Positions 1-37,034 of a stretch of 64,000 nucleotides of DNA are shown here, piece after piece. Where the stretch lies: assembly GCA_947501325.1 (NCBI GenBank), contig CANMVC010000002.1:930001-994000 (forward strand). Direction: 5' to 3'. The stretch's first letter is position 1. Every line of letters starts with the position of its first letter. This DNA comes from an uncultured Sphingomonadaceae bacterium (GTDB lineage Bacteria; Pseudomonadota; Alphaproteobacteria; Sphingomonadales; Sphingomonadaceae). Position numbers and translations under genes: made by a program. The notes under the pieces are model-generated. The model did no database searches. It saw only the letters and a list, made by a program, of their open reading frames with translations, and was not told the DNA's origin.

Positions 1-423
1 CAGGCCAAGTCCTGGGTCGCGGGTGAAACGACCTACAGTCATGAACCGTCCATCGTTGAGCTAACCACCGACGATCCCTACACTGCTGCGTTCGAGATCA
101 ACGGCAAAGTCCGCAAGGAGGATATTGAGTTGAGCAAAAAAATGATGACCGAGTTCATGACCGACGATCCACCTCGACGTCTGCTGGCGCGCATCAGGAA
201 ACTAGACGGGCTGCAGCCGTCGACGCTTTTTGACGGTCAGATGATTCAAATGAAACGGGAAGCACGAAAACATCTCGATCGCTATGCAATAGTTGGTGGG
301 CCAGAATGGCTACAGCATCTGGCTCGGGCGATGGCACCATTGTTTGATTTTCAAATCCGGACTTTTGAACTGGACGAAGAAGAAAGTGCCTGGGAATGGT
401 TGGAAGAAAAAGTGGCCGCCTGA
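1..423 (+). CDS. SpoIIAA-like (STAS/SEC14) protein, 5' end outside window
   Basis: The frame is open from base 1 and closes with TGA at 421-423, so about 140 C-terminal residues are visible and the true start is missing. The visible part matches the general shape of SpoIIAA-like proteins: an acidic beta segment (AAFEINGKVRKEDIE), a helical middle, the stretch YAIVGGPEWLQHLARAM, then a beta strand and an acidic tail. Such proteins are small soluble lipid- or regulator-binding folds of mostly unknown role and often sit in stress islands, which agrees with the GSP17M-like and nitroreductase genes that follow. A TTG at 130 could serve as an internal start, but the upstream codons read as normal protein, so I treat the gene as truncated. 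Family call is moderately sure; function is not known. Confidence 0.7.
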   Translation, partial: QAKSWVAGETTYSHEPSIVELTTDDPYTAAFEINGKVRKEDIELSKKMMTEFMTDDPPRRLLARIRKLDGLQPSTLFDGQMIQMKREARKHLDRYAIVGGPEWLQHLARAMAPLFDFQIRTFELDEEESAWEWLEEKVAA

Positions 424-747
424 GTCCGAAATTACGAACATTTTCAACCTGAAACGCTGTTAGGCGCAGTAGATTTCTGCTTGTGTATGGTTCGGCATTC
501 AGATGAGGAATTAAATAGCGTCAAAGTCCAAAACATCACGTAAGCGGACATTAGAGCTTTGTCGCTTTTGACAGAAAAATTGAATTGATAGGTCCTGCCG
601 GCACTCTAATCGCTTTAAAAAAGACAGAGTCAGCAATGAAGCTGTAACCCCCGACCTGTTTTTGATGTGTTTGTTGGTTCGCAAGCGGATATCAAAGCGC
701 TGATAGAAAGTCCCCCGGAAATATTCAGCAGCAATAGTACCCGCTAT
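424..747. other. Intergenic, no gene seen
   Basis: This 324-base stretch lies between two convergent genes. I see no start with a ribosome binding site, no tRNA and no strong hairpin with a T-run in it. Short AT-rich tracts are present, but nothing I can name. Confidence 0.5.
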
Positions 748-1734
748 TCATTGACCTGTTTCAATTTCAGATATTGCGAGATTGATTTCTTGTAGTCGAT
801 CGCCAGATCGTGACCCCGGCATGCCTTCATTCGATGCCATTTCCAGTTCCCTCTCGTCATAGGCCCAACGCTTGAGAAGCTCGATCTTGATATTATCCGG
901 CAATGATGTTCCCATGAGCTTGTCCGGCGTTTCAAATGTCCCAGCTGGATCGGCCAATGCATGTCCTGGATCAATGTTATGGTCGTTAATTTGTGTACGC
1001 ATTATTTCGAGATAGATACGTCGATCAATATAGGCTTTGATCTCATCTTCACTCGAGAAGACTTTGCCGAACACATAATATTCACGGTCGTTGGCCCGAA
1101 CATAATTTTCGCCGCGGTAGAGCAGCCGCGCGTCATCAAGGGAATTGGTCGCATAATGATCTGCAAGCTTCTGCTGTTCATTTGGTAGGCCGTGGACATG
1201 TACATCATCGCCAGAATGCGCGGTCAATATTCTGGTTGCTCTGTGCTCATCAGCTTCGTCCCAAGTGCGAACCCAAAGCAATAGACCGCCTTTGCGCAGT
1301 TGTGCTTCAATATAGTCAGCGTGACGCTGTCCAAGGACGCGTGCAATAATTTTGCCGATCACGCCTCCGGCCCCGCCACCAATCGCTCCTGCCAGGATCG
1401 CTGCACTGATTGCTCCCCCTGATGCAACGATCGGGATAAACGTTGCCAGGGCACCGACATACAATAGTCCGCCAATGACCCCGCCCTCCGCATCACCCAT
1501 CGATTCAGTGGAAATGTAAGCAGTGGTTGGAACAGCGGTACTATCTTCCAATACCGTCACTGGAGTAAAGGTGTGTCCAAAGTTTTCCCGTATCACTTTA
1601 TTTGAAGCAAGCAGACTGAGATCGGCCCTGTCAAAACCGTGGGTGAGCAAGTCATCGACCGCTGCTTGCAGAGTTTCTTCAGTATGAAAGACACCAACCG
1701 CTTCTCTGACCGTTCGAACTGGTATATCAACCAT
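748..1734 (-). CDS. GSP17M-like general stress protein with glycine-zipper segment
   Basis: The 328-residue product starts at ATG 1734 (MVDIPVRTV), because GGAAGG lies 9 bases upstream. A TTG six codons earlier has no such site. Residues about 12-45 (VGVFHTEETLQAAVDDL, then GFDRADLSLLAS) match the N-terminal domain of general stress protein 17M/YflT. Residues about 80-135 are glycine-, alanine- and isoleucine-rich, typical of a glycine zipper that inserts in or lies on membranes. The C-terminal half is polar and ends in a helix rich in charged residues. The family is stress-induced, of unknown biochemistry. The neighbourhood of nitroreductase, ADH and P-ATPase genes suggests low-oxygen or envelope stress. 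No FNR-type box is visible upstream. Confidence 0.65.
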   Translation of the reverse strand: MVDIPVRTVREAVGVFHTEETLQAAVDDLLTHGFDRADLSLLASNKVIRENFGHTFTPVTVLEDSTAVPTTAYISTESMGDAEGGVIGGLLYVGALATFIPIVASGGAISAAILAGAIGGGAGGVIGKIIARVLGQRHADYIEAQLRKGGLLLWVRTWDEADEHRATRILTAHSGDDVHVHGLPNEQQKLADHYATNSLDDARLLYRGENYVRANDREYYVFGKVFSSEDEIKAYIDRRIYLEIMRTQINDHNIDPGHALADPAGTFETPDKLMGTSLPDNIKIELLKRWAYDERELEMASNEGMPGSRSGDRLQEINLAISEIETGQ

Positions 1735-2130
1735 TGTAGATATTCCTTCCAAAGTTTTCCGCTAGCGTATCAACTGGCCTGCAACCTTGCTGCACAGCGT
1801 TCGAAAGCAGGCTTGTGGCATAAGGTTGAAGCATTTCTGAGCCGCGCCTTGGCCGCCACTATCATTTCAAATGGCCATAATATTGTCTTCTATCTTGTTG
1901 AAGATATCTCTGGCGTTCATTTCACCAAAGAAAGTCAAGGATCCTACAACCATAGCGTTTCATCAATCAGTAAAAGTCCTTAAAAACCTTTGCCACAATG
2001 CCTGCGCTAAATGAGTATCGTGGAGAATACGTAGTTACAATGTAACCGGATTACTGTGTGTTGAATGAGCGTTGGTTTGATGAAGCCATTTACTCCACCA
2101 ATTTAATGACACCAGCACGGAGACCGTGAC
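1735..2130. promoter_or_regulatory. Divergent promoter region with 13-bp palindrome
   Basis: This 396-base gap separates the stress protein (minus strand) from the alanine-rich protein (plus strand). It has no convincing ORF. At 2034-2046 lies GTTACAATGTAAC, a perfect palindrome with a one-base centre, about 85 bases before the plus-strand start, preceded by TACGTAG at 2028-2034. It could be an operator; no named consensus fits. Confidence 0.35.
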
Positions 2131-2794: not shown

Positions 2795-3892
2795 TCAGAT
2801 CTCCAACACCGCGTCAACTGGGCGTCGGAGCGACATTGGCATTGTTGGCCCATAACCAAAGCGCATGATGATATTGGGCCGCCGCTTCGGCGTTCCAACC
2901 AAGGCCGCCAGTTCCGGACGCAGTTTTAGGACTTCAACGGGCTGATTTATATACGCCTGCTTCAACCCCAGAGCGGTCGCCTGCAAAGCAAACCTTTGGC
3001 AGGCGCGGCCTGCTTGCACCCAATGTTCCGGATCATCTTTCTCTCCAACAAATACCGCAATGCCAGCAGAACCGTCAATCTGGCGGGCATATTTGTCGTT
3101 CTCCGCATTTTTCTGGAATAGCAGATCAAACATCCGCCGCCCGAGCCAGCTTGGCAAAGCGGGATTACCACTGCTCGCCCCAAACAGACCATCGCGCTTT
3201 CCCATCGCATCATTGGGATTGAAGCGGATCCAATGCTTCAGTTCGTCAACGAATCCCTTGTCCTCCATCTGCAAGCTATTCCCAGCGATCACCAAATCCC
3301 GAATACGGTTCATTTGCATTCTGTCGGTTATCAGGATCGTTGCGACGCCAGGAATCTGCGATGCAGAGGACAGCACAGCCAGATCGGTAGTGCTTACAGA
3401 CCTGCCATCATAGTCTGTTCTGGTCGATTGCCTTTTGGTAATAGCCTCAAACAGGGATGAGCGGTCTTCCCCGCCTGCCACCGTATCGACCACAACTTTT
3501 CCGTTTTCAGCCGAATCAAAGCGAAGCTCGCTCGTGCGATTGGCGGATGTGCATGCAATCATCAGATTTTCGGCAGCGCAGCCAAGGCTCGCGAAAAGAT
3601 GATGATCGTCAGGATCAACTACGCTCGTTCTTCGCGTGAAATCCGGTAGAATCTCGAAACTGCCCCCTCGAACGCGAAACTTCCAAGGCTGTGTATTGTG
3701 CCCATTGGCTGCGAGTGTTGCATAACGGATCAGTTCGCGGTCATTTGGTTGCACAGCAAGCGGCAAGCGCAATTGTTTTGCAACTTCCTCATATTCGTCC
3801 ATTGATCCCGTTTGCTTAACTCCGATTGCGGTTGCAGCAACAACTGCGACAATCACAGCCCCGCCGCCAACCAAAAGAGTGCGCCTGTGCAT
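2795..3892 (-). CDS. Acg-type nitroreductase-family protein with N-terminal export/anchor signal
   Basis: The product is 365 residues. ATG at 3892 is chosen because GGGAG stands 9 bases upstream. The N-terminus (MHRRTLLVGGGAVIVAVVAA) is a twin-arginine-like or single-span signal, so the enzyme is probably exported or anchored. The body shows Acg-family nitroreductase features: NGHNTQPWKFRV near residue 65 (FMN-binding loop), TRRTSVVDPDDHHLFASLGC, and a C-terminal FMN-fold segment with GLKQAYINQPVE. Acg (Rv2032) and its paralogues Rv3127 and Rv3131 belong to the M. tuberculosis DosR regulon; their proposed role is to sequester or use FMN rather than reduce nitro compounds, so substrate is left open. 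It is convergent with the alanine-rich gene and divergent from the alcohol dehydrogenase. Confidence 0.75.
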   Translation of the reverse strand: MHRRTLLVGGGAVIVAVVAATAIGVKQTGSMDEYEEVAKQLRLPLAVQPNDRELIRYATLAANGHNTQPWKFRVRGGSFEILPDFTRRTSVVDPDDHHLFASLGCAAENLMIACTSANRTSELRFDSAENGKVVVDTVAGGEDRSSLFEAITKRQSTRTDYDGRSVSTTDLAVLSSASQIPGVATILITDRMQMNRIRDLVIAGNSLQMEDKGFVDELKHWIRFNPNDAMGKRDGLFGASSGNPALPSWLGRRMFDLLFQKNAENDKYARQIDGSAGIAVFVGEKDDPEHWVQAGRACQRFALQATALGLKQAYINQPVEVLKLRPELAALVGTPKRRPNIIMRFGYGPTMPMSLRRPVDAVLEI

Positions 3893-4139
3893 CCGTTTTT
3901 CTCCCGTCAATTATCGGAAAATTGGTTCGATCAGGAATATGCGTTGGTTCTGAATGCACAAATACGTGTTTTAACGGATTTCCTCCGAACACATGGAGCT
4001 TTATGTTTGGCATCCGCTATTGCGCCCGTAGCAGTCAATATACGTCCCATTCTTATATGGATATTTACGAGTATGAGCGTTGATCATTCCTGCCTATTTC
4101 AATTGCAGTTTGAACGTTGAAACCTTGAGGTTGGTTGTC

Positions 4140-5156
4140 ATGCCAAAAAATCCAGAACACTATCGCGCTATGCAACTGGAAAAACCCGGAGAGCCGCTCC
4201 GGAAAATCGCCCAATCGATTTCGGAACTTCACTCGAATGAGATATTTGTCGAGATACTCGCCTGCGGTGTGTGCAGAACTGATTTGCATATTCTGGACGG
4301 CGAGATTCAGGCTACAACCTATCCCATTGTGCCCGGTCATGAAGTGGTCGGGCGTGTTCTAGCAATCGGCAATGAAGTGAGAGGATTCACCCTTGACGAG
4401 CGGATTGGTATTCCATGGCTAGGCCACAGCTGTGGACATTGCAGCTACTGCAAAGACGGTCGTGAGAATTTATGCGACCATCCTGAATTTACAGGCTGCA
4501 CCCGTGACGGTGGTTATGCGAGCCATATTATCGCCAATGCCCAATATTGCTTTGCTATACCAGAGCGGTTTTCTGACGCCGAAGCCGCGCCATTACTTTG
4601 TGCTGGCCTGATCGGCTGGCGGGCCATGCGGATGACAGGAACAGCACAGAAAATCGGCTTCTACGGTTTTGGGGCATCAGCTCATATTATGGCACAGATT
4701 GCAACCTGGCAGGGGCGCGAAATCTATGCGTTTACACAACCTGGAGACACCGAACGACAGGCCTTTGCCCGGGATTTGGGTTGCGTGTGGGTTGGTGGAT
4801 CCGATGAAGCGGCTCCCCACGAGCTGGATGCAGTAATCATATTTGCCCCTGTAGGATCACTTGTTCCCGCGGCCCTCAAAGCTGTTCGCAAAGGTGGCGC
4901 GGTTGTCTGCGCTGGCATTCATATGAGCGATATTCCTGGCTTTCCCTATGCAGACCTTTGGGGCGAACGAAGCATAGTTTCAGTTGCCAATCTTACCCGT
5001 GAAGATGGGACGGAATTTCTGGCCGCAGCCGACAAGTCGGGGATCATTCCGACGGTCGAGACATACCCTCTTTCACAAGCCAACAAGGTGCTGAAAAGGC
5101 TCCGAGATGGACAGATCGATGGGGCTGCCGTGCTGGTTCCAACGCTTGACGCCTGA
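4140..5156 (+). CDS. Zinc-dependent alcohol dehydrogenase (MDR family)
   Basis: The enzyme has 338 residues from ATG 4140, which has TTGAGG about 10 bases upstream; the extra TTG 60 bases earlier adds residues not typical of the family. Catalytic zinc ligands are seen as Cys-45 (ACGVCRTDLH) and His-67/Glu-68 (PGHEVVG). The structural zinc lobe has Cys-98, 101, 104 and 112 (SCGHCSYCKDGRENLC). The Rossmann loop is partly changed (IGFYGFGASAH instead of GxGGxG). It is closest in form to the NAD(P)-linked AdhP-like cinnamyl/propanol-preferring class. It oxidises or forms alcohols in the cytosol, and in this island a role in redox balance during oxygen shortage is plausible. Exact substrate cannot be read from sequence. 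Confidence 0.85.
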   Translation: MPKNPEHYRAMQLEKPGEPLRKIAQSISELHSNEIFVEILACGVCRTDLHILDGEIQATTYPIVPGHEVVGRVLAIGNEVRGFTLDERIGIPWLGHSCGHCSYCKDGRENLCDHPEFTGCTRDGGYASHIIANAQYCFAIPERFSDAEAAPLLCAGLIGWRAMRMTGTAQKIGFYGFGASAHIMAQIATWQGREIYAFTQPGDTERQAFARDLGCVWVGGSDEAAPHELDAVIIFAPVGSLVPAALKAVRKGGAVVCAGIHMSDIPGFPYADLWGERSIVSVANLTREDGTEFLAAADKSGIIPTVETYPLSQANKVLKRLRDGQIDGAAVLVPTLDA

Positions 5157-5178: not shown

Positions 5179-6195
5179 TTAGCTTGCGCTCAAATAGACA
5201 ATGTAGGCGTTAACAAGATACACGGTAAAAAGCGCGATGCTGGTCCATCCGACGGTCTGGAACAAACGCGTCTTGGGTCGATAGAGCAAGCCGGCAATCA
5301 CCACGCCGGTCATCACCATCGCCGCCATGGCCGTCGCGACATGAATTGGTGAAGCGGATTCCAGCAGTGGTGCCTTTAGATATAATCCGTCCTCGACCGC
5401 CAGAATGAGAATATTGAACAAGTTGCTGCCCAGCAAATTGGCGATCGCCATATTTACCGATCCCTGCCGCAACGCAGCCAGCGATACCGTCAGTTCCGGC
5501 AAGGAGGTCGCCGCAGCGACAAATATCGTCCCCATGAAACCGCGCCCAATAGCCATCCGATCCGCAATCTCGGCACCAATGACGGGAAGCAGCGATCCGC
5601 CGATCAATATGGCTATGGCTGCATAGGCAACCGTTTTTTGGGCTTCGCTTAGGGATTGTTCAGGCTGTTCTTTTGCCGTTTCCAATGCCGCACTCTCTCT
5701 GACCTTGGCTTCGTAATTGTAAATGGCTCGGGTCGCGATGATATAAAGACCGATAATCACAAAAGAGGCGACGCCCAAATGCCCGATGGACGGATTAATC
5801 CCAAACCCACCGACCATGATGGTCAACCCGGCAAAGCCGATTAGCATGATCCCGAAGCCAGCGGACAATATATGCGCTTGCCGGGCCTGACGATAGACGG
5901 ATTCCCCGCGAACGGCGAAGTCGAGAACAACCAACATGACAAGATTGAACACACAGCTGCCAAATACAGCGCCAACGGCGATGTCGGGTGCATTTGCCAA
6001 TGTGACAGAAGACACGCCCGCTGCAAGCTCAGGCAAAGATGTAATCGAGGCGAGTAAAATCAATCCGACCCATTCGTCAGAAAGACCCTTTTTGGCCGCG
6101 ATAATCTCCGCATTCCGCGTTAATCGCGGACCTGCTGCGAGTATCAACATCGCACTCAAACCGAACAGGACCCAACAGAAGATCAGGACAATCAT
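5179..6195 (-). CDS. Calcium/sodium antiporter, CaCA family (YrbG-like)
   Basis: The 338-residue protein has about ten hydrophobic spans in two homologous halves. Each half holds an alpha repeat: SITSLPELAAGVSSV near residue 55 and AATSLPELTVSLAALRQGS near residue 230, the latter followed by NLLGSNLFNILILA. These are the Ca2+/cation-binding signatures of the CaCA superfamily. Its ATG overlaps the stop of the upstream P-type ATPase as ATGA (6192-6195), so the two are translated as a coupled pair. Together they suggest a Ca2+ (or other divalent) export unit in the inner membrane. Ion preference is inferred from family. Confidence 0.85.
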   Translation of the reverse strand: MIVLIFCWVLFGLSAMLILAAGPRLTRNAEIIAAKKGLSDEWVGLILLASITSLPELAAGVSSVTLANAPDIAVGAVFGSCVFNLVMLVVLDFAVRGESVYRQARQAHILSAGFGIMLIGFAGLTIMVGGFGINPSIGHLGVASFVIIGLYIIATRAIYNYEAKVRESAALETAKEQPEQSLSEAQKTVAYAAIAILIGGSLLPVIGAEIADRMAIGRGFMGTIFVAAATSLPELTVSLAALRQGSVNMAIANLLGSNLFNILILAVEDGLYLKAPLLESASPIHVATAMAAMVMTGVVIAGLLYRPKTRLFQTVGWTSIALFTVYLVNAYIVYLSAS

Positions 6196-8852
6196 TTCAA
6201 CCGCTCGGTCAATATATCCCTGCGGCTGCTAAGGGAGCCGCCGTAGCGTATCAATTTCCAGATTTCAGATATGATCAATCCGGCAAGGGAAATCAGAAAA
6301 CAGATAGCTAGTTCGTTGGCACTAAGCGGCGAGACATGAAAGAGTTGCTGACCGGTTGGTGTGTAAATAATGACCAGATGCAGGGCAGCACTGATTAGAA
6401 TAGTTGCTATCAAGAATGGATTTCGAAAAGGATTTGATTGAAAAATCGATCGTTTCTCCGACCTTACAGCAATTGCCTGACCCAATTGCAGAAATGTCAG
6501 GACAGTAAACACCATGGTTTGCCAATTATCTTTGTCGTTGACCAATGACCAATATTGCAAGCCCAGGGTTACGGTGGCCATAAAGCCGCCATAAAACAGG
6601 ATATGCCTCCATAGATCCCGATCGAAAACTCCTTGCTCCGGCGGGACCGGCGGTCGATTCATTACATCCGGTTCTGCTCTCTCAGCGGCAAGAGCAATAC
6701 CTGGCAACCCGTCGGTAACGAGGTTGATCCACAATATTTGAAGCGGCAATAGCGGGAGCGGCAAGCCCAGCAGCGGCGCGAAAAATATCGTCAAAATTTC
6801 CGCCAGATTGCATGCAAGGACATAGCGGATAAATTTGCGGATATTGTCATAGACCCGACGGCCCTCACGCACCGCCCATACGATGGATGCAAAATTGTCG
6901 TCGAGCAGAACCAGATCGGATGCATCCCGGGCTACGTCCGTGCCGATCTTGCCCATGGCGACACCGATATTGGCGCGCGACAACGCAGGGGCATCGTTTA
7001 CGCCATCTCCGGTCATTGCAACAAACTGGTTTTGATCTTGCAACGCCTCCACGATGCGGATTTTTTGCGCAGGATCGACGCGTGCGTAGATTTTTGTACC
7101 AAGAACATGCTGGTCAAATTGGTCGTCAGTCAAACGTGCAAGTTCTGTACCGCTCAGGATTTGATCATTGCTGTCAGCAAGGCCGATTTGCATTGCTATC
7201 GCTCTTGCCGTTTGTGGATGATCACCGGTTATCATAACGGTTTCAATGCCAGCGGCTTTACATGCAGCTATCGCCGCTGCGGATTCTGGCCGGGGCGGAT
7301 CCTGCAAACCGGCCAGACCAATTATCTCGGTATTGTGATCGGTTTCGTCGGAAGCGGGCAATTCGTGTGATGAACGCCGCGCAAAGGCAAGCACACGCAT
7401 CGCTTGGTTTGCCATTGCGTCCGCTTTTTCTTGCCATTCCGCCGAACCGGCCAGCACAATTTCCGGCGCGCCTTTGGTGTAAGCGACATATGATCCGTTG
7501 TCTGAGTGCACCGTAGTCATACGCTTACGAGCCGAGCTGAATGCAAATGTGGCAACCCTGGCTTGGCTTTGTTCCAGCTGTTGCTTTTCATAGCCATTTT
7601 CCAACGCATATTCTGAGAGTGCCAGTTCGGTCGGCTCTCCTTGAAGGGTGGTGTTGTTCTTGTCGTCGCGAGCGCCTTCAACTTCGCTACACAAAGCCAT
7701 GGCGGTGAGAAGCTCACCTCTGTTATCCGTCACGATATCGACAACATGCATCTTATTCTGCGTCAGCGTTCCGGTTTTATCAGTGCAGATATAAGTCACC
7801 GAACCCAGTGTCTCGACGGCAGGTAAGCGCCTGATCAGTGCGTTGTGGCGCGCCATCTTCCGGGCACCGACTGCTAGCAGCACGGTCACAACCGCTGGTA
7901 ATGCTTCGGGCATTGCAGCGACCGCAACGCTGGCAGCTGTCATGAACATGATCAATGGCGGATGACCGCGAAGTAACCCCACCGCAAAAATGATGATGCA
8001 CACAAAAAACGCTGCTATGGCCAATTTCCGGCTAAGCCGTGCGAGCCGCCTTTGTAGAGGCGTTAGCACGGTCTTTCCACTTTGCATCAAAGTTGCGATC
8101 TTACCGATTTCGGTTTTTTTACCTGTTGCAACAATCAGACCGCGCGCTTTGCCACGGCCGACTGCCGTTCCGCCAAATGCCATATTTTTTTGATCGCCAA
8201 GAGGTAAACCCCCATCGCTAAGCGTCTCAGAACTCTTCTCGGTACTTAAGGACTCTCCTGTCAGCGCTGCCTCGTCAATCTCAAGGTCCGTAACATCAGT
8301 CAGACGGATATCCGCAGGCACTTGCCCCCCGGCGTCTATTTGCACCAAGTCACCGACAACCAAATCGCTTGCATTAATGTGCCTTGATTTGCCATCGCGG
8401 ATGACAGTCACACGATGTGGCATCAGCTGTTTCAAAGCGTCTATCGCCCGTCGCGCACGCAGTTCATGAAAGACACCAATGGCAGCATTGATTACCAGAA
8501 TGGCGGCAATCATCGCCGCATCACGGGGCTGTCCGGCAATCGCCGCAATCACCGCAGCTACTATCAGAACCATGATCATCGCGTCTTTGAACTGACCTGT
8601 GATCAGGCTTAGGATACCCTGTTTTCGCTGAACCGAGATAACGTTCAGGCCATCATCTGCTAACCTTTTTCTGGCTGCTTCGCTCGTCAATCCGGTGTGC
8701 AAATTGCTGCCGAGTTCACGCGCAGCCACGTCCGTAGAAATTGTCGTCCAAGCAGGTACCGAAGACAGATCAGGAGCATCAGCCGAAAGCGGGCGGCGAC
8801 CGAACAGTCTGCCAATCCGCCAGTTGCGTCCTGGAAGATAGTCGTCAGCCAC
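6192..8852 (-). CDS. P-type cation-transporting ATPase, Ca2+ (P2A/CtpF-like)
   Basis: From GTG 8852 (AAGGA 10 bases upstream) the product is 886 residues, usual for P2 ATPases; a longer frame to 8954 has no ribosome site. The actuator motif TGES is at 198-201, the TM4 ion motif PEALP at 315-319, the phosphorylated Asp-358 in DKTGT, and the hinge MTGDGVNDAPA follows. TM5 has CNLAEILTIFFAP (acidic residue as in SERCA Glu-771) and TM6 has NLVTDGLPG, so Ca2+-type ligands are kept. The N-terminus matches the cation ATPase N domain. M. tuberculosis CtpF, a DosR regulon member, is of this type. It is translationally coupled to the CaCA antiporter. Confidence 0.87.
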   Translation of the reverse strand: MADDYLPGRNWRIGRLFGRRPLSADAPDLSSVPAWTTISTDVAARELGSNLHTGLTSEAARKRLADDGLNVISVQRKQGILSLITGQFKDAMIMVLIVAAVIAAIAGQPRDAAMIAAILVINAAIGVFHELRARRAIDALKQLMPHRVTVIRDGKSRHINASDLVVGDLVQIDAGGQVPADIRLTDVTDLEIDEAALTGESLSTEKSSETLSDGGLPLGDQKNMAFGGTAVGRGKARGLIVATGKKTEIGKIATLMQSGKTVLTPLQRRLARLSRKLAIAAFFVCIIIFAVGLLRGHPPLIMFMTAASVAVAAMPEALPAVVTVLLAVGARKMARHNALIRRLPAVETLGSVTYICTDKTGTLTQNKMHVVDIVTDNRGELLTAMALCSEVEGARDDKNNTTLQGEPTELALSEYALENGYEKQQLEQSQARVATFAFSSARKRMTTVHSDNGSYVAYTKGAPEIVLAGSAEWQEKADAMANQAMRVLAFARRSSHELPASDETDHNTEIIGLAGLQDPPRPESAAAIAACKAAGIETVMITGDHPQTARAIAMQIGLADSNDQILSGTELARLTDDQFDQHVLGTKIYARVDPAQKIRIVEALQDQNQFVAMTGDGVNDAPALSRANIGVAMGKIGTDVARDASDLVLLDDNFASIVWAVREGRRVYDNIRKFIRYVLACNLAEILTIFFAPLLGLPLPLLPLQILWINLVTDGLPGIALAAERAEPDVMNRPPVPPEQGVFDRDLWRHILFYGGFMATVTLGLQYWSLVNDKDNWQTMVFTVLTFLQLGQAIAVRSEKRSIFQSNPFRNPFLIATILISAALHLVIIYTPTGQQLFHVSPLSANELAICFLISLAGLIISEIWKLIRYGGSLSSRRDILTERLK

Positions 8853-8887
8853 CCTGTTTTCCTTTTTAGAGTCGTGCCTTCCGAAAA

Positions 8888-9409: not shown

Positions 9410-9532
9410 AAAGCCTCCAGCAAGCAGGCAAATTATTAGACACAACATCAAGAAAACATACGTAAACACCCTGATATTCCAGCAGCGACCCCACATGTAT
9501 TTTTATTGTTGATTTCATCCTGGGACCAGAAT

Positions 9533-12517: not shown

Positions 12518-12527
12518 GACATATCAT

Positions 12528-16482: not shown

Positions 16483-16485
16483 CTA

Positions 16486-17346: not shown

Positions 17347-17347
17347 G

Positions 17348-27709: not shown

Positions 27710-28050
27710 CGTGCCTCCATCCCTTCTTTCGATCTCATCCGCCTGACCAGCGGAGCAGTGAAAATATCGTGATAACTGCCTTGCGACAATGTGCATGGCA
27801 TTCCCAAGCCTCGCTCCTAGGGATTCTACTTACAGAAATCAGAACCCAGCCAAACTAGAAGGGTCAGATCAGTCGAACTGCATTGAGAGCGATATGAAGC
27901 ATGCAATGATCATAGAGTGCAAAAGGAACATCGGTACCAAACTGCTAATGTGCCTGACTCAATTTGGAATTCATTCTATCGATCATGTGTGCACCGAAGA
28001 GGGGACAGATAAACGCCACCCCAACTCGTTGCTGGTTGGGGACCATTGCC
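27710..28050. promoter_or_regulatory. Divergent promoter region, weak copy of 18-base motif
   Basis: This 341-base gap lies between the formate channel and the PRPP synthetase. At 27823-27840 ATTCTACTTACAGAAATC shares 12 of 18 bases with the motif at 10361 and 30187. An ATG at 27985 is in frame with the PRPP synthetase but lacks a ribosome site. No other gene is seen. Confidence 0.3.
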
Positions 28051-30268: not shown

Positions 30269-31444
30269 ATGACAATCAAACACGGTCCAGTCTGGAAAGT
30301 CATCATCGCGATAGCATTTGTGCTGCTCGTAATGTTTGTTACAACCCGAGTTGCTTCGCAGATTTCGGAAAAATCGGGTGAAATTGTCAACGTTCAGGGC
30401 AGTTTTTCCGATATGTCATTTTTCTCTGGCGATGAGGTAAATCTCAAAGTCAATTCGACCGATGATGTTTTCGCGGCCGGGGGTGCCGTATCGGCGAATG
30501 ACAGCTCGGCAGACCACCTCATTCTAGCAGGTGGCGAGATCACAGCGACTGATGTTGATGTTCGAGACATATTTGCAGCCGGCGGTAAAATCACCCTGGC
30601 CAGTGGGGAAATTGCCGATGATGTCATCGCCGCTGGCGGTGATATTGTCGTCCGGCCCACATTCCAGATCGGTGGATCAGCCGTCTTTACAGGTGGCGAT
30701 GTAAAGATCGAAGCACCGGTTGCGGCTGACCTTAGAGCAGCGGCTGGCAAAGTCTATCTGAACTCAACAGTGGCCGGTAACGCAAGGCTGATGGGCGATT
30801 TCGTCGAAATTGGTCCAAAAAGCCGCATCGGCGGAGACTTACTTTACCGAACCGAAAACCTGAAAATTGCGCCGGGTGCGGTTATCACCGGCAAAAAGAT
30901 TATTCTGCCAGACGAAGAATATGCTGAACTAGAGCGATGGGGTAAAGGCGGAGCGGCATTATTTGCTGTATTCTCCATTGCTCTTCTTCTCGGGTTTGCA
31001 GTCCTCGTAATCATTGTCACCGTCACTGTCCCCAGTTTAATGAATGCGGCCTCCACAATGATACGTTCAAAGCCGTTGCGTACAATGGGCATAGGATTGC
31101 TGATTACAATCGCTATCCCGATTGCGGTAATTGTGTTGTTCGCAACCGTCATTGGGGTTCCTTTGGCGTTACTGATTGGCGCGATCTTTTTTGCTGTCGC
31201 ACCGGTTGCTATTGCCGCGACATCCTATTTTCTCGGCATGAGCGGACGCGAGATCATCACCAAAAAAACCGATCAACCGCCAACCATGATCGAACGCCTA
31301 CTCTGGCCAGCGTTGGGGGCGATCCTCATTCTACTTTTAGGCATGATCCCATATGTCGGATTGCTGGTTTGGCTATTGGCTTTAATTGTGGGCGTCGGTG
31401 CGGTCATTCCTCGCGGCGGGAAAGCGCTGGCTCAGAACGCGTGA
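30269..31444 (+). CDS. Polymer-forming (bactofilin-like) membrane protein
   Basis: The 391-residue protein has an N-terminal membrane span (VWKVIIAIAFVLLVMFVTT). From about 40 to 210 it is a right-handed beta-helix built of short turns such as DDVFAAGGAVSAN, DHLILAGGEITAT and DDVIAAGGDIVVRP, the pattern of polymer-forming cytoskeletal proteins. About five C-terminal spans follow, ending in GAVIPRGGKALAQNA. Such fused forms may scaffold complexes on the periplasmic face. AAAGGAAC is near the ATG. The 18-base motif at 30187 is in the promoter. No partner gene is obvious. Confidence 0.7.
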   Translation: MTIKHGPVWKVIIAIAFVLLVMFVTTRVASQISEKSGEIVNVQGSFSDMSFFSGDEVNLKVNSTDDVFAAGGAVSANDSSADHLILAGGEITATDVDVRDIFAAGGKITLASGEIADDVIAAGGDIVVRPTFQIGGSAVFTGGDVKIEAPVAADLRAAAGKVYLNSTVAGNARLMGDFVEIGPKSRIGGDLLYRTENLKIAPGAVITGKKIILPDEEYAELERWGKGGAALFAVFSIALLLGFAVLVIIVTVTVPSLMNAASTMIRSKPLRTMGIGLLITIAIPIAVIVLFATVIGVPLALLIGAIFFAVAPVAIAATSYFLGMSGREIITKKTDQPPTMIERLLWPALGAILILLLGMIPYVGLLVWLLALIVGVGAVIPRGGKALAQNA

Positions 31445-31573: not shown

Positions 31574-32494
31574 TTAAAGTCCGTCAAAATCGATAAATAC
31601 CGCGGCGTGATCACTGGCTTGCGGCCTGTGCTTGCCAACACCAGCGAGCCGCTGGCCCCGAAAGCGCGAAGTTTCCTTACCCAGCCCCATACGTTCCACA
31701 ACCGGTGCAGCATTTGGCCACTGCTCGGCAAGCGCCGGTGATGCCAACAGCGCGTCTGGGCTATGGTATAATCCAGAATGCGGATCAAAATAGGTCCATC
31801 GTTCCTTCTCTGGCAAACGTTGCATTAGGTCGATTGAAAAGTCCGTTTCGAGAGGTGCAATGGCGCGCGGACGACCGGCAATTGGAACATTGGGTTCATT
31901 CAGATCGCCTAGGACAAGCCAAAGGTTTTGCGTGGGATCCACAAAATAACTTTCGATTAGCCAGCGGGTTGCTAGCGCTTCTAGTCTGCGTGTGGTCCAA
32001 GCCGCGGTTGGGATGGGATACGTGGATTTAAAGTGGCAGACAAAAAGTGCAAGCGATCCAATCATAACCATCAGGCAGTCGCGCCGGAACACGGGAAAGT
32101 CTGGATCCACGCCAGGAGGCGGATCGATTCCCACTTCTGTCAAAGTAAGCGCAGCATGGCTTCGGATCACATCTATGGGGCGGCGAGAAAGCAAAGCAAC
32201 ATCAAGGCCGCGACCGTCATTTCCCGGCAAACATACAAGGTGTGGATAGGGTGCCGTTCCCGCCGGCAAAAGATAGTTCTCGTGAAAATATTCAAGCGTT
32301 GCGAGATCGAACACCTCTTGCAATGCAACCACATCGGCATCGATTGCTCTCAATAGTTCAGCGGTCAAACGACGATCGATCGGATCCAGATTTTCCTCCT
32401 CAGGATCATCGGAGTCCCATGCACCATGGAGGTACTTACGGCCATCAATACTCTGGAGCCTGAGGTTTTGAACATTTAGTGTCGCAACGCGCAT
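31574..32494 (-). CDS. Endonuclease/exonuclease/phosphatase family protein
   Basis: This 306-residue protein shows the DNase I-like metal site in order: MRVATLNVQNLR at the N-terminus, VVALQEVFD near residue 56 (metal Glu), VCHFKS near 155, VLGDLNEPN near 195 and the C-terminal QASDHAAVFIDF (catalytic Asp-His). There is no signal peptide. The family includes nucleases and inositol or lipid phosphatases, and the sequence does not decide between them. It stands alone on the minus strand, convergent with the bactofilin-like gene. Confidence 0.82.
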   Translation of the reverse strand: MRVATLNVQNLRLQSIDGRKYLHGAWDSDDPEEENLDPIDRRLTAELLRAIDADVVALQEVFDLATLEYFHENYLLPAGTAPYPHLVCLPGNDGRGLDVALLSRRPIDVIRSHAALTLTEVGIDPPPGVDPDFPVFRRDCLMVMIGSLALFVCHFKSTYPIPTAAWTTRRLEALATRWLIESYFVDPTQNLWLVLGDLNEPNVPIAGRPRAIAPLETDFSIDLMQRLPEKERWTYFDPHSGLYHSPDALLASPALAEQWPNAAPVVERMGLGKETSRFRGQRLAGVGKHRPQASDHAAVFIDFDGL

Positions 32495-32596: not shown

Positions 32597-33673
32597 TTAT
32601 TCGCCAACGGCCTTGGCAACGAGAAGTTGCTCCTGCAGATTTTCAGAGGTTATGTAACCAGAAAACCGACCACTTGACTCTGTAACAGCCACCGCGGGAG
32701 TGCCAGTTGCCAGAAGACGGACAACTTCATCCATTGGCTGCCAACGCAAGACAGACGGTATTTCGCGATGCATAGCCTCGCCGACCATCGTCTGGGCACC
32801 GGACGTATGCAGCGCCTTAATGATATCATTGCGTGTCAGCATTCCTTCAAGGCGACCATCGGGACCGATCACTGGAAACTCGGTTTGGCTGGACCGGATC
32901 AATGCGTCTGTGGCATCCGATATGGGAGCCGCTCGCTTCAATGCGACAAAAGCCGTGATCATTGATTCTCCCGCAGGGAGCCCGGACGTAACGGCGCGCA
33001 AACGAACCAAGCCTGCTTCGGCGCCGGCTGCGACAAACACGAATACCGCAATGAGAACGAGTATGATATGTCCTATAATAATCGCATATAATCCGAACAG
33101 GATCGCAATAGCCTGTCCGACATGAGCCGCTATTCTGGTCCCTTGCAAATAACCGAGCCGTGAAGCAAGAGCCGCCCGCAACACACGTCCGCCGTCCAGT
33201 GGAAAAGCCGGAATCAGGTTAAAGAAAAATAGCACGAGATTGACATAGGCCAGTTGGCCCAAAAGATCCCGGCCCGAAGTTCCTTCAAGAACCTTAAGCG
33301 GATCTGGCAGACCGCCTAAAAGCAAGATTAGTATGATGGCAATGACAAGCGTCACCGCAGGTCCGGCGATTGCAATCAGTATCTCTTCGCGTGGCCGCTC
33401 AGGGATCCGCTCTAGCCGGGAAATTCCACCGATTGGCAAGAGAATTACCTCTGGGGTAAATATGCCAAAGCTTCTTGCGGCCAATATATGACCAAACTCA
33501 TGAAGTAGAACACACAGGAAGAGCAGGATTAAAAAAGCCACCGTGAACAATGCGGCTCCAAAGCCGCTTTGAATCCATAGCATGATACCGATGCCGACCA
33601 AGAAAAACAGGAAGGTCATGTGCAAACGGATCTTTGTGCCCATTATCTGACCAATCATAATAGACCAATGCAA
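32597..33673 (-). CDS. Site-2 (M50) intramembrane protease with two CBS domains
   Basis: TTG 33673 (LHWSIMIGQIMG) is chosen because AAGGAA stands 7 bases upstream; the product is then 358 residues. Zinc ligands are HEFGH near residue 60 and the Asp of NLIPAFPLDGGR near 145, with six hydrophobic spans around them. Residues about 235-350 form two CBS domains (SSQTEFPVIGPDGRLEGML and TPAVAVTESSGRFSGYI) that usually bind adenosine nucleotides. It cleaves membrane-bound regulators. Rv2625c in the DosR regulon has the same architecture. No anti-sigma factor substrate is adjacent. Confidence 0.87.
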   Translation of the reverse strand: MHWSIMIGQIMGTKIRLHMTFLFFLVGIGIMLWIQSGFGAALFTVAFLILLFLCVLLHEFGHILAARSFGIFTPEVILLPIGGISRLERIPERPREEILIAIAGPAVTLVIAIILILLLGGLPDPLKVLEGTSGRDLLGQLAYVNLVLFFFNLIPAFPLDGGRVLRAALASRLGYLQGTRIAAHVGQAIAILFGLYAIIIGHIILVLIAVFVFVAAGAEAGLVRLRAVTSGLPAGESMITAFVALKRAAPISDATDALIRSSQTEFPVIGPDGRLEGMLTRNDIIKALHTSGAQTMVGEAMHREIPSVLRWQPMDEVVRLLATGTPAVAVTESSGRFSGYITSENLQEQLLVAKAVGE

Positions 33674-33772
33674 AGTCGTTCCTTCCCTTCCGTTTTGCCT
33701 TGGGTTTGCTCGACCCAGAGTAAAGCCTAGCATCTCATGAATCGCGAGCCCTTAGGTATTTCTCCCTATGTT

Positions 33773-33942: not shown

Positions 33943-34806
33943 ATGACAGCCACCAAACCTTCCCCGGCACAAGCGCACCGGTACGAGGCCAATATTTCTG
34001 TGGCATCAGCTTTGCGAGAAGCAGCTCAATTGTTAAAGGCACAAGATGCCAGCCCCTTCCGCATCATGGCTTACTTCAAGGCGGCGGCAACCATTGAAGG
34101 CCTTGGTAGCGATATTTTTGACATTGCTGCGGGCGGAATCACTGCACTGGATGCAATACCCAATATTGGCGTTGGGATTGGTGCCGCCATACTGGAACTA
34201 TTATCTACAGGCCGATGGTCACAGCTGGATCGGTTGCGCGGCGGACTAGAGCCTGAAGCAGCTTTCCAGAGCCTTCCTGGTGTTGGACCAAGGCTTGCCC
34301 ATGATATTCACGAACATCTTGATGTCGAAACGTTGGAAGAGCTTGAAGTTGCCGTTTATGATGGTCGGCTGGCCAAGGTACCGGGTATCGGCCCACAGCG
34401 GCTTGCGATCATTCGCAATGCGCTATCCGGCATTTTCTCAAGAAGAGGTCTGAGCGAGGTCCGCCGACTTGCACTACCCTCCCCACCCGTTAGTCTCTTG
34501 TTGGACGTTGACCGCGAATATCGGTCAAAGGCAGAGACCGGCAAGCTTCGCCAAATTGCACCCAAGCGGTTCAATCCCAACAGCAAGGCATGGTTACCCA
34601 TCCTACATACAGAGAGGGACAACTGGCAATTCACCGCTCTCTATTCCAATACTGCGCGAGCGCATAATTTGGGCAGAACCAAAGATTGGGTCATCATATC
34701 GTTCAGCACCGATCACCAATCTGAGGGGCAATGCACTGTGGTCACCGAGACTTCAGGACTGAAGAAAGGGCAGCGTGTCGTACGTGGCAGGGAAAACGAA
34801 TGCTAA
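33943..34806 (+). CDS. Helix-hairpin-helix protein with PolX-like N-terminal region
   Basis: The 287-residue protein opens with an 8-kDa-domain-like helical region (VASALREAAQLLKAQDASPF, then RIMAYFKAAATIEGL) of the DNA polymerase beta/PolX type. HhH turns IPNIGVGIGAAILELL, LPGVGPRLAHDIHEHL and VPGIGPQRLAIIRNAL follow, all non-sequence-specific DNA contacts. The polymerase palm is absent; the last 100 residues are unrecognised, with beta strands (WQFTALYSNTARAHNLGRTKDW) and a basic end. It probably binds DNA ends or gaps. The family is often found near stress or ligase genes, but no repair gene is adjacent here. Confidence 0.72.
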   Translation: MTATKPSPAQAHRYEANISVASALREAAQLLKAQDASPFRIMAYFKAAATIEGLGSDIFDIAAGGITALDAIPNIGVGIGAAILELLSTGRWSQLDRLRGGLEPEAAFQSLPGVGPRLAHDIHEHLDVETLEELEVAVYDGRLAKVPGIGPQRLAIIRNALSGIFSRRGLSEVRRLALPSPPVSLLLDVDREYRSKAETGKLRQIAPKRFNPNSKAWLPILHTERDNWQFTALYSNTARAHNLGRTKDWVIISFSTDHQSEGQCTVVTETSGLKKGQRVVRGRENEC

Positions 34807-35344: not shown

Positions 35345-35378
35345 CTTTTTAGTATCTATGGATTCAAACGACTATGTC

Positions 35379-36122
35379 TCAAGAGTAAGTAGAGAGTGCG
35401 TTGCCGACAAAATAGGCCAATGCTGCTGCGATACCCCCGATGAAGAATGTTTCCAATCCAGAGCGCCACCAAGAGGCGGTTGCCCAAAGGCTTTTCATTG
35501 CTCCAATTAAGAAGAACACAATGCCGGTTATTACCGTGGCCACCATGAACGGATTTGGGGTTTCTGTCAGATAGGGTAACAAAGGCACTGATCCGCAAAG
35601 CAGGAACGCCACGAATGTAGCAAACCCTGCTTTGCCCGGACGAGGCTTTGTAACCGGCATCCCATATTCTTCAACAAGCATGAAATCGATCCACCTTTGT
35701 TGATCGGAGGTTATAGACTGAACACCACTCTCCAGGGCATCTCCACTTAATCCTTTCTTTTCAAGTATTTGCCTGACCTCCTCTCTTTCCCCATCGGGAT
35801 CTGCCGCAACATGCCGTTGCTCCACAAGCCGCAGCCGATCAATATTGTCGGTCACGGTTTTCGTACCGCTATAATTGCTTGCCGCCATCGAAAATCCGTC
35901 AGCTAAAAGGTTGGCTAATCCCAGGATCAGTATGACACCTGAAGATAAAGAGGCTCCAACGACCCCTGCAACGATTGCAAATGTGGTGATTGCTCCGTCT
36001 ATTCCGCCATAGACGAAGTCCGACAGATATGATGCGCGTCTTTTGTCATTCAAACGGGCAGCAATGGCGGCAGGGTCATGGCTATGTTCGAGCTCAGCGA
36101 ATTGCTTGTGACCATTCGTCAT
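35379..36122 (-). CDS. VIT1/CCC1-family iron/manganese transporter
   Basis: This 247-residue membrane protein shows the family start YLSDFVYGGIDGAITTFAIV, then a second span with GLANLLADGFSMAASNY and a cytosolic loop with many Glu residues (DPDGEREEVRQILEKKGL) that takes the place of the metal-binding domain. Three more spans close it. VIT proteins move Fe2+ or Mn2+ out of the cytosol. It is divergent from the TSUP gene. Iron handling fits an island with hemerythrin and iron-sulfur enzymes. Confidence 0.82.
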   Translation of the reverse strand: MTNGHKQFAELEHSHDPAAIAARLNDKRRASYLSDFVYGGIDGAITTFAIVAGVVGASLSSGVILILGLANLLADGFSMAASNYSGTKTVTDNIDRLRLVEQRHVAADPDGEREEVRQILEKKGLSGDALESGVQSITSDQQRWIDFMLVEEYGMPVTKPRPGKAGFATFVAFLLCGSVPLLPYLTETPNPFMVATVITGIVFFLIGAMKSLWATASWWRSGLETFFIGGIAAALAYFVGNALSTYS

Positions 36123-36263
36123 ATCAACTTCCTTTTAGCTGTGGATCAGATTCTGCTTTACCATTTGCACTTGCATCCGTCAGTTTATCCTAAGGGGATT
36201 TGCCTAAGGGACGGCAAGTTGGCGACTGATAGAAGACACTGTTTAACAAAGAAAAGAGTTGAT

Positions 36264-37034
36264 ATGGTGGAAGCATTCAATGCCGACCTCCTCTACTTGC
36301 TGCCATTTGTTGCAATCGGATTTTGCGCACAAGCAATTGACGGAGCGCTCGGCATGGCGTTCGGGGTGATCGTCAATATAATATTGGTTGGATTCTTGGG
36401 CATTGCACCTGCAACAGCTTCAACTCAGGTCCATATTGTAAAATGCTTCACGACAGCGGCATCAGGCGCCAGTCATTTTTATCTGGGCAATTTTGATAAG
36501 CAGCTCTTTTTCCGATTATTGATACCGGGCGCCATCGGCGGGATCGCGGGAGCATTTTTGCTGAGTTATGTTCCCAGCAAGATTATCGCGCCGTTTGTTC
36601 TCGTCTATCTGTCGGCAATTGGACTATGGATACTTGTCCGCGGCCTTATTTCTTCTCCCAAAATTCGGCCACCAAAATATGTCTCTTCCATCGGGGCGAC
36701 GGGTGGTTTTCTGGATTCTATTGGAGGCGGTGGCTGGGGACCGGTCGCTACATCCAATCTGCTGGTACAGGGCGCGGAACCCCGAACAGTCATCGGAACC
36801 GTCAATAGCGCCGAGTTTTTCCTGACCATTTTGATATCGGCAACGTTTATCGTCAATCTGGGCTTTGGCGATATTCTGGGACCCACCATCGGCCTGATGA
36901 TCGGGGGTGTTTTTGCTGCACCATTTGGTGCGATTGTGGCAAAATATTTGCCGAAGCGATTGATGTTCATTCTAGTGGGTATTGTGCTGACCCTGACAAG
37001 TATCCTCGCGATATATAAATCGGTATCAGATTAA
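36264..37034 (+). CDS. Sulfite exporter TauE/SafE (TSUP) family protein
   Basis: ATG 36264 (MVEAFNADLLYLL) gives 256 residues; the longer frame upstream runs antisense into the VIT gene. About eight spans and two TSUP repeats are seen: GFCAQAIDGALGMAFGVI near residue 18 and GATGGFLDSIGGGGWGPVATSNL near 150. It exports sulfur-containing or organic anions; sulfite, taurine products and others are all possible. AAAAGAG is upstream. It shares a 141-base promoter region with the VIT gene. Confidence 0.82.
   Translation: MVEAFNADLLYLLPFVAIGFCAQAIDGALGMAFGVIVNIILVGFLGIAPATASTQVHIVKCFTTAASGASHFYLGNFDKQLFFRLLIPGAIGGIAGAFLLSYVPSKIIAPFVLVYLSAIGLWILVRGLISSPKIRPPKYVSSIGATGGFLDSIGGGGWGPVATSNLLVQGAEPRTVIGTVNSAEFFLTILISATFIVNLGFGDILGPTIGLMIGGVFAAPFGAIVAKYLPKRLMFILVGIVLTLTSILAIYKSVSD

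Follow-up and report, generated by a model that had tools for sequence, protein, structure and literature searches.

It is reasonably probable, in our judgement, that the block at positions 1-37034 of the window (the whole stretch of 64,000 nucleotides analysed here, from an uncultured Sphingomonadaceae bacterium) represents a module for low-oxygen maintenance that moves horizontally among the Alphaproteobacteria and is set here in a variable region that ends at a serine recombinase and a tRNA-Phe gene.

In this sphingomonad, roughly 30 genes for stress response and metabolism make up the block, and the families listed in the first-pass annotation are all found in it, mostly by profile search (strands are given as + or -). 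A general-stress-like membrane protein with a weak YflT match (748-1752, -; Pfam, 20.9 bits, below cut-off) is followed by an Ala-rich protein, by eye a probable lipoprotein (2131-2718, +), which has no Pfam or NCBIfam family and has a 50% relative in genome G237, in synteny close to Acg, Ca-ATPase and HHH8 genes. The FMN oxidoreductase at 2795-3910 (-) exceeds the curated cut-off of NCBIfam NF047509 (308 bits against 199), which places it in the Acg family, and matches PDB 2YMV; by eye, it carries a twin-arginine-like leader. Then come a Zn-dependent alcohol dehydrogenase (4080-5156, +; profile), also present in G125, G399 and two plasmids, a Na+/Ca2+ exchanger (5179-6195, -; PF01699), a type II P-type ATPase of the Ca2+ type (6192-8954, -), whose best NCBIfam matches are PMR1/SERCA-type and fall under the equivalog cut-offs, a PF20603 protein (8888-9496, -; profile) and an LptB-like ABC ATPase (9506-10312, +; TIGR04406, 325.8 bits, cut-off 240). 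The Crp/Fnr regulator at 10465-11085 (+) is FixK-like, as judged from its homologues and from NF050806 (FixK; 116.5 bits against a cut-off of 300), and no Fe-S cysteine triplet was seen in its N-terminal part. To the left of the window there are genes for a histidine kinase and for two response regulators of the LuxR type.

Downstream of the regulator are an erythromycin-esterase/succinoglycan-type hydrolase, hereafter EreA (11174-12517, +; PF05139, 434 bits; PDB 2QGM, 2RAD/3B55), a marginally matched DLH-type alpha/beta hydrolase (12429-13178, +; 26.7 bits against 21), whose called start overlaps EreA, so that the real start is probably further in, a phosphoribosyltransferase or PRTase (13197-13853, +; PF00156, 65 bits) and a PPOX/FMN-binding protein (13857-14357, +; PF01243). 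The hallmark of the module is a PreATP-grasp/ATP-grasp peptide-ligase-like enzyme (14418-15929, -; PF18604; PDB 8YND, E 2e-7; PGM1 3WVQ, E 0.003), which is followed by a hemerythrin (15922-16482, -; PF01814) and a class II glutamine amidotransferase (16486-17346, +; PF13230). The last of these was considered as EgtC, the ergothioneine enzyme, and misses the equivalog cut-off (TIGR03442, 124 bits against 218.65), so we call it EgtC-like. This ATP-grasp/EgtC-like enzyme pair, adjoining hemerythrin in sphingomonads, is new here.

Further to the right, an MgtC/DUF4010 membrane protein (17360-18652, -; profile) precedes genes for pyruvate-dehydrogenase-type E2, E1beta and E1alpha and an acetate-CoA ligase (18934-23860, -; profile), the formate dehydrogenase alpha subunit fdhA (23832-26519, -; TIGR01591, 751.9 bits, cut-off 666) and the formate/nitrite transporter FocA (26909-27796, -; PF01226). 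A second, divergent PRPP synthetase (27964-29037, +; profile) has close relatives, besides the window's own genome (G000), only in G125 and G151 among a panel of 167 genomes, and beyond that panel in G399 and G470. The kinase-like protein at 29034-30080 (-), without a Pfam or NCBIfam match, is recognized by its relatives and belongs to what we take to be COG2187; one relative (28%), encoded on a Leisingera plasmid, bears the annotation bifunctional aminoglycoside phosphotransferase/ATP-binding protein. The block further encodes, by eye, a polymer-forming-like membrane protein of no family (30269-31444, +), with a partial second copy at 1306 kb of contig G000:C1, and, by profile, an Exo_endo_phos family protein (31574-32494, -), an M50 (site-2) protease with CBS (32597-33733, -), an HHH_8/HHH_5 protein that is probably DNA-binding, judged from these domains (33943-34806, +), a VIT1 family transporter (35379-36122, -) and a TauE/SafE permease (36078-37034, +).

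We counted 31 window families and scored their clustering within 20 kb against 47 control stretches, all from Sphingomonadales. In these raw counts, which ignore kinship and in which the control genera differ from those of the named loci, G399 holds 14 of the 31 families, G125 10, G481 and G470 9 each and G237 6, L. methylohalidivorans 8, L. caerulea 7, and Sulfitobacter and pTK1 6 each, whereas 43 of the controls hold none and 4 hold one; the L. aquaemixtae plasmid, over its first 50 kb, has 5. One other genus thus has 14 of the window families and three further genera have 9-10, whereas no control has more than one. The block is accordingly to be read as a recurrent mobile module and not as a chance list, which supports the term module of the first-pass annotation. 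EreA neighbourhoods tell the same: at least two further module families accompany 21 of the 80 named and 11 of the 28 sphingomonad loci, and none of the 47 controls. The gene families that travel together, as sub-operons in shuffled arrangement, in several genera and on plasmids, are EreA-DLH-PRTase; ATP-grasp, hemerythrin and the EgtC-like amidotransferase; PDH and acetate:CoA ligase; PRPP synthetase and the COG2187 kinase; and Ca2+ ATPase and the Na/Ca exchanger. At most 60 kb separates the members of 12 of 34 within-genome family pairs, against 1.2 expected. The co-occurrence check proposed at the outset came out unevenly at genome level: EreA with the Ca2+ ATPase and M50-CBS with the Ca2+ ATPase were positive and COG2187 with M50-CBS weakly so, whereas all four Acg pairs were at chance in 166 genomes. 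A distinction can now be drawn between EreA/PRT, Ca2+ ATPase, M50-CBS and COG2187, which keep each other's company, and Acg, which does not join them.

The claim of mobility is well supported, by patchy presence, congeners without the block, copies on plasmids of Rhodobacterales, a tRNA/recombinase junction and a partial second copy. The ATP-grasp gene was found in 5 of 328 genomes of the family (the window's included), from five genera, and in none of six congeners. Beyond 37034 the block continues to genes for DUF3489, DUF2924 and a large serine recombinase (38838-41345, +; profile) and to tRNA-Phe (41965-42040, -), at about 42 kb, to the right of which synteny with the congeners is conserved. 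The recombinase is retained at the junction in four of the six congeners and is a remnant in two; to its left the congeners differ and carry different cargo, and their DNA there (3.6-40 kb each) yielded a 40% formate dehydrogenase, weak matches to the ABC ATPase and a single partial match (34%) to the alcohol dehydrogenase, the rest of the block not being found in it. The partial second copy, on G000:C1 of the same genome, is again close to a recombinase, one of the family found at the junction. Absence from close relatives and a tRNA/integrase junction are thus found, as in an integrative island, whereas two ends with att repeats are not: in 164 kb we detected neither a left border nor an att repeat, and the 15-20 bases at either end of tRNA-Phe do not recur there. 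Much of the block is also carried by plasmids of the marine bacteria Leisingera and Sulfitobacter, with USPs; by our reading, about half of the 57 annotated genes of a 59.8-kb Leisingera plasmid can be assigned to the module.

The different cargo of the tRNA-Phe site in congeners would suit a stress-gene hotspot, that is, a recombination-prone region collecting independently useful accessory genes without common regulation or joint function, an explanation that we regard as less probable. Gene order and orientation vary among the blocks, as a hotspot would have it, and module genes also occur singly: no other module family lies in the fetched flank of 41 of the 80 named EreA loci (only 54 of which are at least 18 kb long) and of 13 of the 28 sphingomonad loci. 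However, the same families recur across sites, genera, orders and plasmids, the sub-operons are conserved, and among 72,556 plasmids the ATP-grasp gene and the EgtC-like gene (at least 49% identity) occur on one identical set of 12.

The link to FNR-type boxes proposed at the outset holds for EreA loci as a class and weakly for the window itself. Positions 1-37034 contain one exact TTGAY-N4-RTCAA box, TTGATCGTGATCAA (26664-26677), upstream of the fdhA-acs-E1a-E1b-E2 run, and a near box, TTGATGCTGATCAT (16469-16482), at the hemerythrin/amidotransferase junction, which is identical in G399 and similar in G481; this near box extends over the called start of the hemerythrin, whose true start, by eye, is likely later. 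With up to one mismatch to TTGAT-N4-ATCAA, the window has 5 sites against a mean of 3.48 in shuffled sequences, not above chance. Around EreA homologues, the 23 exact boxes in 549,771 bases correspond to about 8 times the density of nine whole genomes (147 boxes in about 28.3 Mb); 16 boxes stand upstream of the 176 module genes examined and none upstream of 666 control genes, and the top palindrome found de novo at EreA loci is TTGAT (4 against 0). Those stretches of the G125 and G237 blocks that were scanned contain no box, a point in favour of the hotspot. Among ten plasmid stretches scanned, that of Sulfitobacter has 5 boxes (0.21 in shuffles), those of L. aquaemixtae, L. methylohalidivorans and pTK1 one each, and six none, five of these six being EreA stretches.

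Taken together, the module is most likely FNR/FixK-linked, horizontally moving and concerned with low-oxygen maintenance, as far as sequence can tell, and it probably helps cells to sit out low oxygen. Falling oxygen would let the host Fnr and the FixK-like regulator of the module turn it on. Hemerythrin and the flavoproteins (Acg, PPOX) may then deal with residual oxygen or reactive species, while acetate, pyruvate and formate would yield acetyl-CoA and NADH; PRPP synthetase and PRTase could salvage nucleobases, the Ca2+ ATPase, the exchanger and the MgtC and VIT1 proteins could keep the ion balance, and the M50-CBS protease and the EreA/DLH hydrolases could maintain envelope or protein. The ATP-grasp/EgtC-like pair might make or trim a small peptide, and is a concrete lead to a candidate new metabolite. 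More tentatively, the module could be a self-contained low-oxygen dormancy regulon, a proteobacterial counterpart of DosR that crosses alphaproteobacterial orders on plasmids and islands and has at its centre a pathway of two enzymes, the ATP-grasp peptide ligase and the EgtC-like protein, that supplies quiescent cells with a new peptide metabolite related to redox state or oxygen.

That the core is instead a C1/acetate metabolic island, serving formate, acetate and pyruvate use with the stress genes as passengers, we consider improbable. In the window fdhA, acs and PDH do form one run, with focA adjoining, and the best-conserved parts include acs and the E1 subunits (61-77%; E2, 47-56%), but in the DNA fetched around the G125, G399 and G470 blocks (80-100 kb) neither fdhA nor focA turned up, and on plasmids acs-PDH stands amid USP, MBL and P-ATPase genes, in Leisingera also amid Hsp20 and CBS genes.

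The resemblance to the DosR regulon of Mycobacterium tuberculosis, also put forward in the first-pass annotation, holds only family by family. DosR regulon blocks are controlled by DevR boxes, and PPOX proteins are among the members; Rv1997 is a Ca2+ P-ATPase, Rv2004c a COG2187 kinase, Rv2625c contains CBS domains and Rv0571c a DLH domain. No match to GGGACTNNAGTCCC, which we take to be the DevR box motif, occurs in the window at up to two mismatches, in agreement with the first-pass annotation. According to published descriptions, the regulon occupies nine blocks of the genome and includes Rv1997, Rv2004c, Rv0571c (phosphoribosyltransferase), Rv2030c, Rv2032 (nitroreductase) and Rv2625c (metalloprotease) (PMC5309233), Rv2030c joining a PRT to an erythromycin esterase (PMC4410610). 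The window, in contrast, holds one cluster, which carries a FixK-like regulator in place of DosS/T-DosR control. Acg (NF047509, 2YMV) and PRT/EreA (PF05139, PF00156, 3B55 relatives) belong to families common to both, the window EreA being of the family of the C-terminal part of Rv2030c, a match by family and not protein to protein; M50-CBS, P-ATPase, PPOX and, through relatives only, COG2187 are present in the window and would be shared too if the Rv proteins are of the families named above. The DosR hallmarks USP, Hsp20/HspX and PfkB had no match among 40 window ORFs scanned. That the block is a true DosR homologue, received from actinobacteria as a unit by descent or transfer, is therefore very improbable, in spite of these resemblances between families and of a PRT-EreA fusion, as in Rv2030c, on a Rhodococcus opacus plasmid, given the different regulator, the lack of DevR box, USP, Hsp20 and PfkB matches and the unlinked Acg.

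Four other known systems resemble the block. The lxa locus of Burkholderia cenocepacia (50 genes, BCAM0275-BCAM0323), compared by description, is likewise a clustered low-oxygen persistence set; its overlap with DosR in USPs, alpha-crystallin and phosphofructokinase is already in print, and it has six USPs (PMC6127331), whereas no USP, and no cluster of USPs, Hsp20 and PfkB, was found in the 40 window ORFs. Such genes are annotated on pTK1 and the L. aquaemixtae plasmid, the latter with five USPs, Hsp20 and PfkB, as in lxa. The in silico targets described for OsdR of Streptomyces coelicolor are similar, with USPs, Zn alcohol dehydrogenase, nitroreductase, pyruvate phosphate dikinase, PPOX and a cotranscribed hemerythrin, but OsdR is a two-component response regulator with another box, and its description names no ATP-grasp/EgtC, acs-PDH or mobile setting (PMC5069765). 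In Sphingopyxis granuli TFA, also a sphingomonad, the experimentally derived Fnr consensus of the Fnr/FixK regulon is the same box, TTGAc/t-N4-g/aTCAA; genes for respiration, uspA, nrdZ and ubiT are among the boxed targets. Its anaerobically induced stress genes, however, are described as not Fnr-regulated, which speaks against our reading, and the words erythromycin, nitroreductase and phosphoribosyl are absent from the main text (PMC7713065). Among the Rhodobacterales, Dinoroseobacter shibae has plasmid genes required for anaerobic growth, and its regulator DnrE serves plasmid genes specifically (PMC5398030), but Dinoroseobacter is not represented among the 12 plasmids that carry the ATP-grasp gene.

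If our reading is right, Alphaproteobacteria can acquire hypoxia persistence by one transfer. Several families of the block recur in the dormancy regulon of tuberculosis, although the regulator is of another type, and the 59.8-kb Leisingera plasmid could serve as a curable, non-pathogen system for the joint action of DosR-type genes. In line with a role at low oxygen, an SCP2 protein and two U32 peptidases, presumably the UbiT/U/V set of oxygen-independent ubiquinone synthesis, are encoded on one of the module plasmids.

The block (1-37034, running on to ~42 kb of the window) is most likely a mobile, FNR/FixK-linked low-oxygen stress cluster, and a new one, though such clusters are already known: passages of earlier papers describe the stress families common to DosR and lxa (PMC6127331) and the overlap of the OsdR and DevR regulons (PMC5069765), and suggest spread of DosR genes by transfer (PMC5309233), and searches of an open-licence library yielded no paper on this module or gene combination. 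In the window genome (3.58 Mb, 99.98% complete) the block has a GC content of 47-57%, and the 2-kb steps to its right have 52-58%, with a single one at 50%. Pfam (40 ORFs) and NCBIfam (20 proteins) bore out most families named in the first-pass annotation, namely Acg, the Ca2+ P-ATPase, EreA (11174-12517, plus strand), DLH, PRTase, PPOX, hemerythrin, M50-CBS, PRPP synthetase, formate dehydrogenase and FocA; for the COG2187 kinase relatives were found, but no profile of either database matched. Three important parts of the block had gone unmentioned: at 14418-15929 a PreATP-grasp enzyme, at 16486-17346 an amidotransferase resembling EgtC, and at 18934-23860 a run of PDH and acetate:CoA ligase genes. 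Peptide ligases of the ATP-grasp type come closest to the ATP-grasp protein (8YND, E 2e-7; PGM1 3WVQ, E 0.003), and EgtC to its amidotransferase partner, which scores under the cut-off for that family. No USP, Hsp20 or PfkB match occurs among the 40 window ORFs searched with Pfam, and the RNA-family search of the window returned tRNA and no other family. The block also holds an LptB-like ATPase (9506-10312) above the TIGR04406 cut-off, possibly a second LptB, with 52-55% relatives inside the blocks of G125 and G470, two other genomes with the ATP-grasp gene.

That gene is found in 5 of 328 family genomes, including the window genome, in five genera and in none of the six congeners, and the block is present in all four other carriers as shuffled sub-operons. 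When window families were counted per 20 kb with 31 of 35 probe proteins (three recombinase-cassette genes and a promiscuous ABC ATPase excluded; for the Leisingera aquaemixtae plasmid, over its first 50 kb), G399 had 14, G125 10, and G481 and G470 9 each; the G237 block, which lacks ATP-grasp, had 6, and among 47 control stretches 43 had none and four had one. The ATP-grasp, hemerythrin and EgtC-like genes (14418-17346) remain adjacent in the window and in the four other carriers.

The module also travels on plasmids. ATP-grasp occurs on 12 of 72,556 plasmid records, eleven from Leisingera and one from Sulfitobacter, and the EgtC-like gene (at least 49% identity) on the identical 12. The 59.8-kb repABC plasmid of L. 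aquaemixtae carries acs, PDH, ppsA, pfkB, Zn-ADH, a P-ATPase, five USPs, an APH/ATP-binding protein, RbbA, sulfite oxidase, MBL, ATP-grasp, GATase, Crp/Fnr, CBS, Hsp20 and a Na/Ca antiporter. Further members are VIT1, M50-CBS and FocA on a mobilizable plasmid of L. methylohalidivorans, and genes for SCP2 and U32 peptidases on an L. caerulea plasmid; the latter genes we take to be UbiT/U/V, the oxygen-independent ubiquinone set. The conjugative Sphingobium plasmid pTK1 combines EreA-DLH-PRTase with USP, Hsp20, PfkB, CBS, PpsA, P-ATPases and globins. EreA plasmids of Novosphingobium, Methylovirgula, Komagataeibacter, Rhizobium and Paraburkholderia hold little or part of the module within 41 kb, and on a Rhodococcus opacus plasmid the PRTase is fused to EreA, the architecture reported for Rv2030c in a passage of PMC4410610. 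Two of the Leisingera module plasmids have a pair of HipA-family toxin genes ahead of the P-ATPase (L171 25288-26849; L259 1943-3504), a possible link to persistence.

At the window site, DNA of each of the six congeners can be aligned with parts of the window to the right of tRNA-Phe. To its left, a serine recombinase is kept in four of them (G514, G454, G538, G364) and a remnant in two (G486, G414), beyond which the congeners diverge (3.6-40 kb compared per genome). Window 29.9-31.4 kb has an incomplete second copy in the same genome, with 82% and 74% DNA identity, ~5 kb from another DUF3489-DUF2924-recombinase cassette; copy and cassette are on contig C1 at about 1306-1314 kb (L083 6067-7773 and 12310-14276). 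Neither att repeats, searched from the tRNA-Phe ends, nor a left border of the block was found in 164 kb. Between recombinase and tRNA-Phe stands a 96-nt direct repeat, 77% alike (41361-41456 and 41771-41866).

Linkage was examined by tblastn around 28 of the 30 EreA places outside the window genome (G181 and G196, on short contigs, omitted; L028 and L030 short; G268 supplying two loci) and in 47 controls, 27 same-contig and 20 recombinase-anchored, the control stretches being positioned manually at round-number coordinates of those contigs rather than drawn at random. PRTase and DLH each lie near EreA at 15 of 28 loci, PEP synthase at 6, MBL at 5, and USP and Crp/Fnr at 4 each, versus 0/47 controls in every case. 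ABC ATPase (8/28 vs 8/47), acetate-CoA ligase (2/28 vs 2/47) and P-ATPase (2/28 vs 1/47) do not discriminate. At least two module families besides EreA, DLH and PRTase accompany 11/28 EreA loci and 0/47 controls, some probes having come from pTK1, Leisingera and Sulfitobacter plasmids picked for carrying EreA or ATP-grasp; one cluster count relied on simple ORF calling and for that reason falls below the tblastn ones. Among the best 80 of 559 confirmed matches from one scan of named genomes, 21 loci have at least two further families, 41 have none, and 14 have at least three, including Stakelama, Altererythrobacter, Croceicoccus, Parvibaculum and three Pseudomonas; at least three named loci (L178, L181, L187) appear to come from genomes already represented in the 28-locus set, so both counts overlap. 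On a Rhizobium plasmid (L025 19335-21329) a single protein joins an EreA domain to what is annotated as protein-L-isoaspartate O-methyltransferase; several sphingomonads probably have the same fusion (ORFs of 662-821 aa), which hints at a role in protein repair.

Across 167 genomes of the order, EreA is found in 30, Acg in 26, COG2187 in 19, Ca-ATPase in 16 (E<=1e-130), M50-CBS in 9 and the control family DUF2924 in 52. The proposed co-occurrence held in part (window genome left out, n=166; one-sided Fisher tests): EreA-CaATPase (7 observed vs 2.6 expected, p=0.006), M50CBS-CaATPase (4 vs 0.7, p=0.0025) and, weakly, COG2187-M50CBS (3 vs 0.9, p=0.04) exceed chance, EreA-COG2187 gave 6 vs 3.1 (p=0.07), EreA-M50CBS 2 vs 1.4 and COG2187-CaATPase 3 vs 1.6, all Fisher and binomial values ignoring phylogeny and multiple testing over 10 family pairs. 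The Acg pairs (EreA 3 vs 4.4, COG2187 4 vs 2.7, M50CBS 0 vs 1.2, CaATPase 2 vs 2.3) and all five DUF2924 pairs were at chance. Within genomes, 12 of 34 pairs lie at most 60 kb apart vs 1.2 expected for an assumed 3.3-Mb genome, G125 and G155 contributing three linked pairs each. The PRPP synthetase query matches the housekeeping enzyme in 167/167, with close relatives in the panel, besides the window genome, in G125 and G151 only. Descent of the block from DosR as one unit was rejected: the window has no DevR box at up to 2 mismatches, and in the panel Acg is unlinked to the rest.

The FNR-type boxes claimed for the block proved dense around EreA loci, but the window itself has one exact box, upstream of fdhA. 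With TTGAY-N4-RTCAA, identical to the Sphingopyxis granuli TFA consensus for Fnr given in a passage of PMC7713065, exact boxes number 4.18 per 100 kb in EreA neighbourhoods and 2.08 in block stretches, against 0.19 in same-contig (n=27) and 0 in recombinase-anchored controls. Nine whole genomes hold 147 in ~28.3 Mb, or 0.52 per 100 kb (reversed-pattern control 0.08), and since this baseline exceeds the same-contig controls we give the enrichment as ~8-fold, not 22-fold. The named loci (best 80 of 559) have 36 boxes in 1,434,308 bases (2.51 per 100 kb), with a single Pseudomonas locus accounting for 8 and the set having no matching controls. Upstream of genes, 16 exact boxes were counted for 176 module genes vs 0 for 666 control genes; TTGAT is the top 5-mer palindrome with a 4-base gap in module upstream regions (4 vs 0), followed by GCGCT and TTGAC (3 vs 0 each). 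In the window a near box separates the hemerythrin gene from that of the amidotransferase, and its conservation extends to G399 and G481. No exact box is present in those parts of the G125 and G237 blocks that were scanned. Ten plasmid stretches gave five boxes in Sulfitobacter, one in each of three and none in six. The one-mismatch count for the window alone was at chance and was rejected as weak support. The block's Crp-family protein is FixK-like by NCBIfam; its close homologues have ETxCR in the recognition helix (placed by eye) vs E..SR of Fnr, whose recognition residues E, S and R are given in a passage of PMC7713065.

Judged from families, linkage and boxes, the module would serve maintenance under low oxygen. 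On the same contig, 20-60 kb to the left (L008 and L009, 870001-910000), there is a photosynthesis gene cluster, with a Mg-chelatase ChlI domain by Pfam and the remaining bch/crt genes assigned by eye, so that aerobic anoxygenic phototrophy seems likely for the host.
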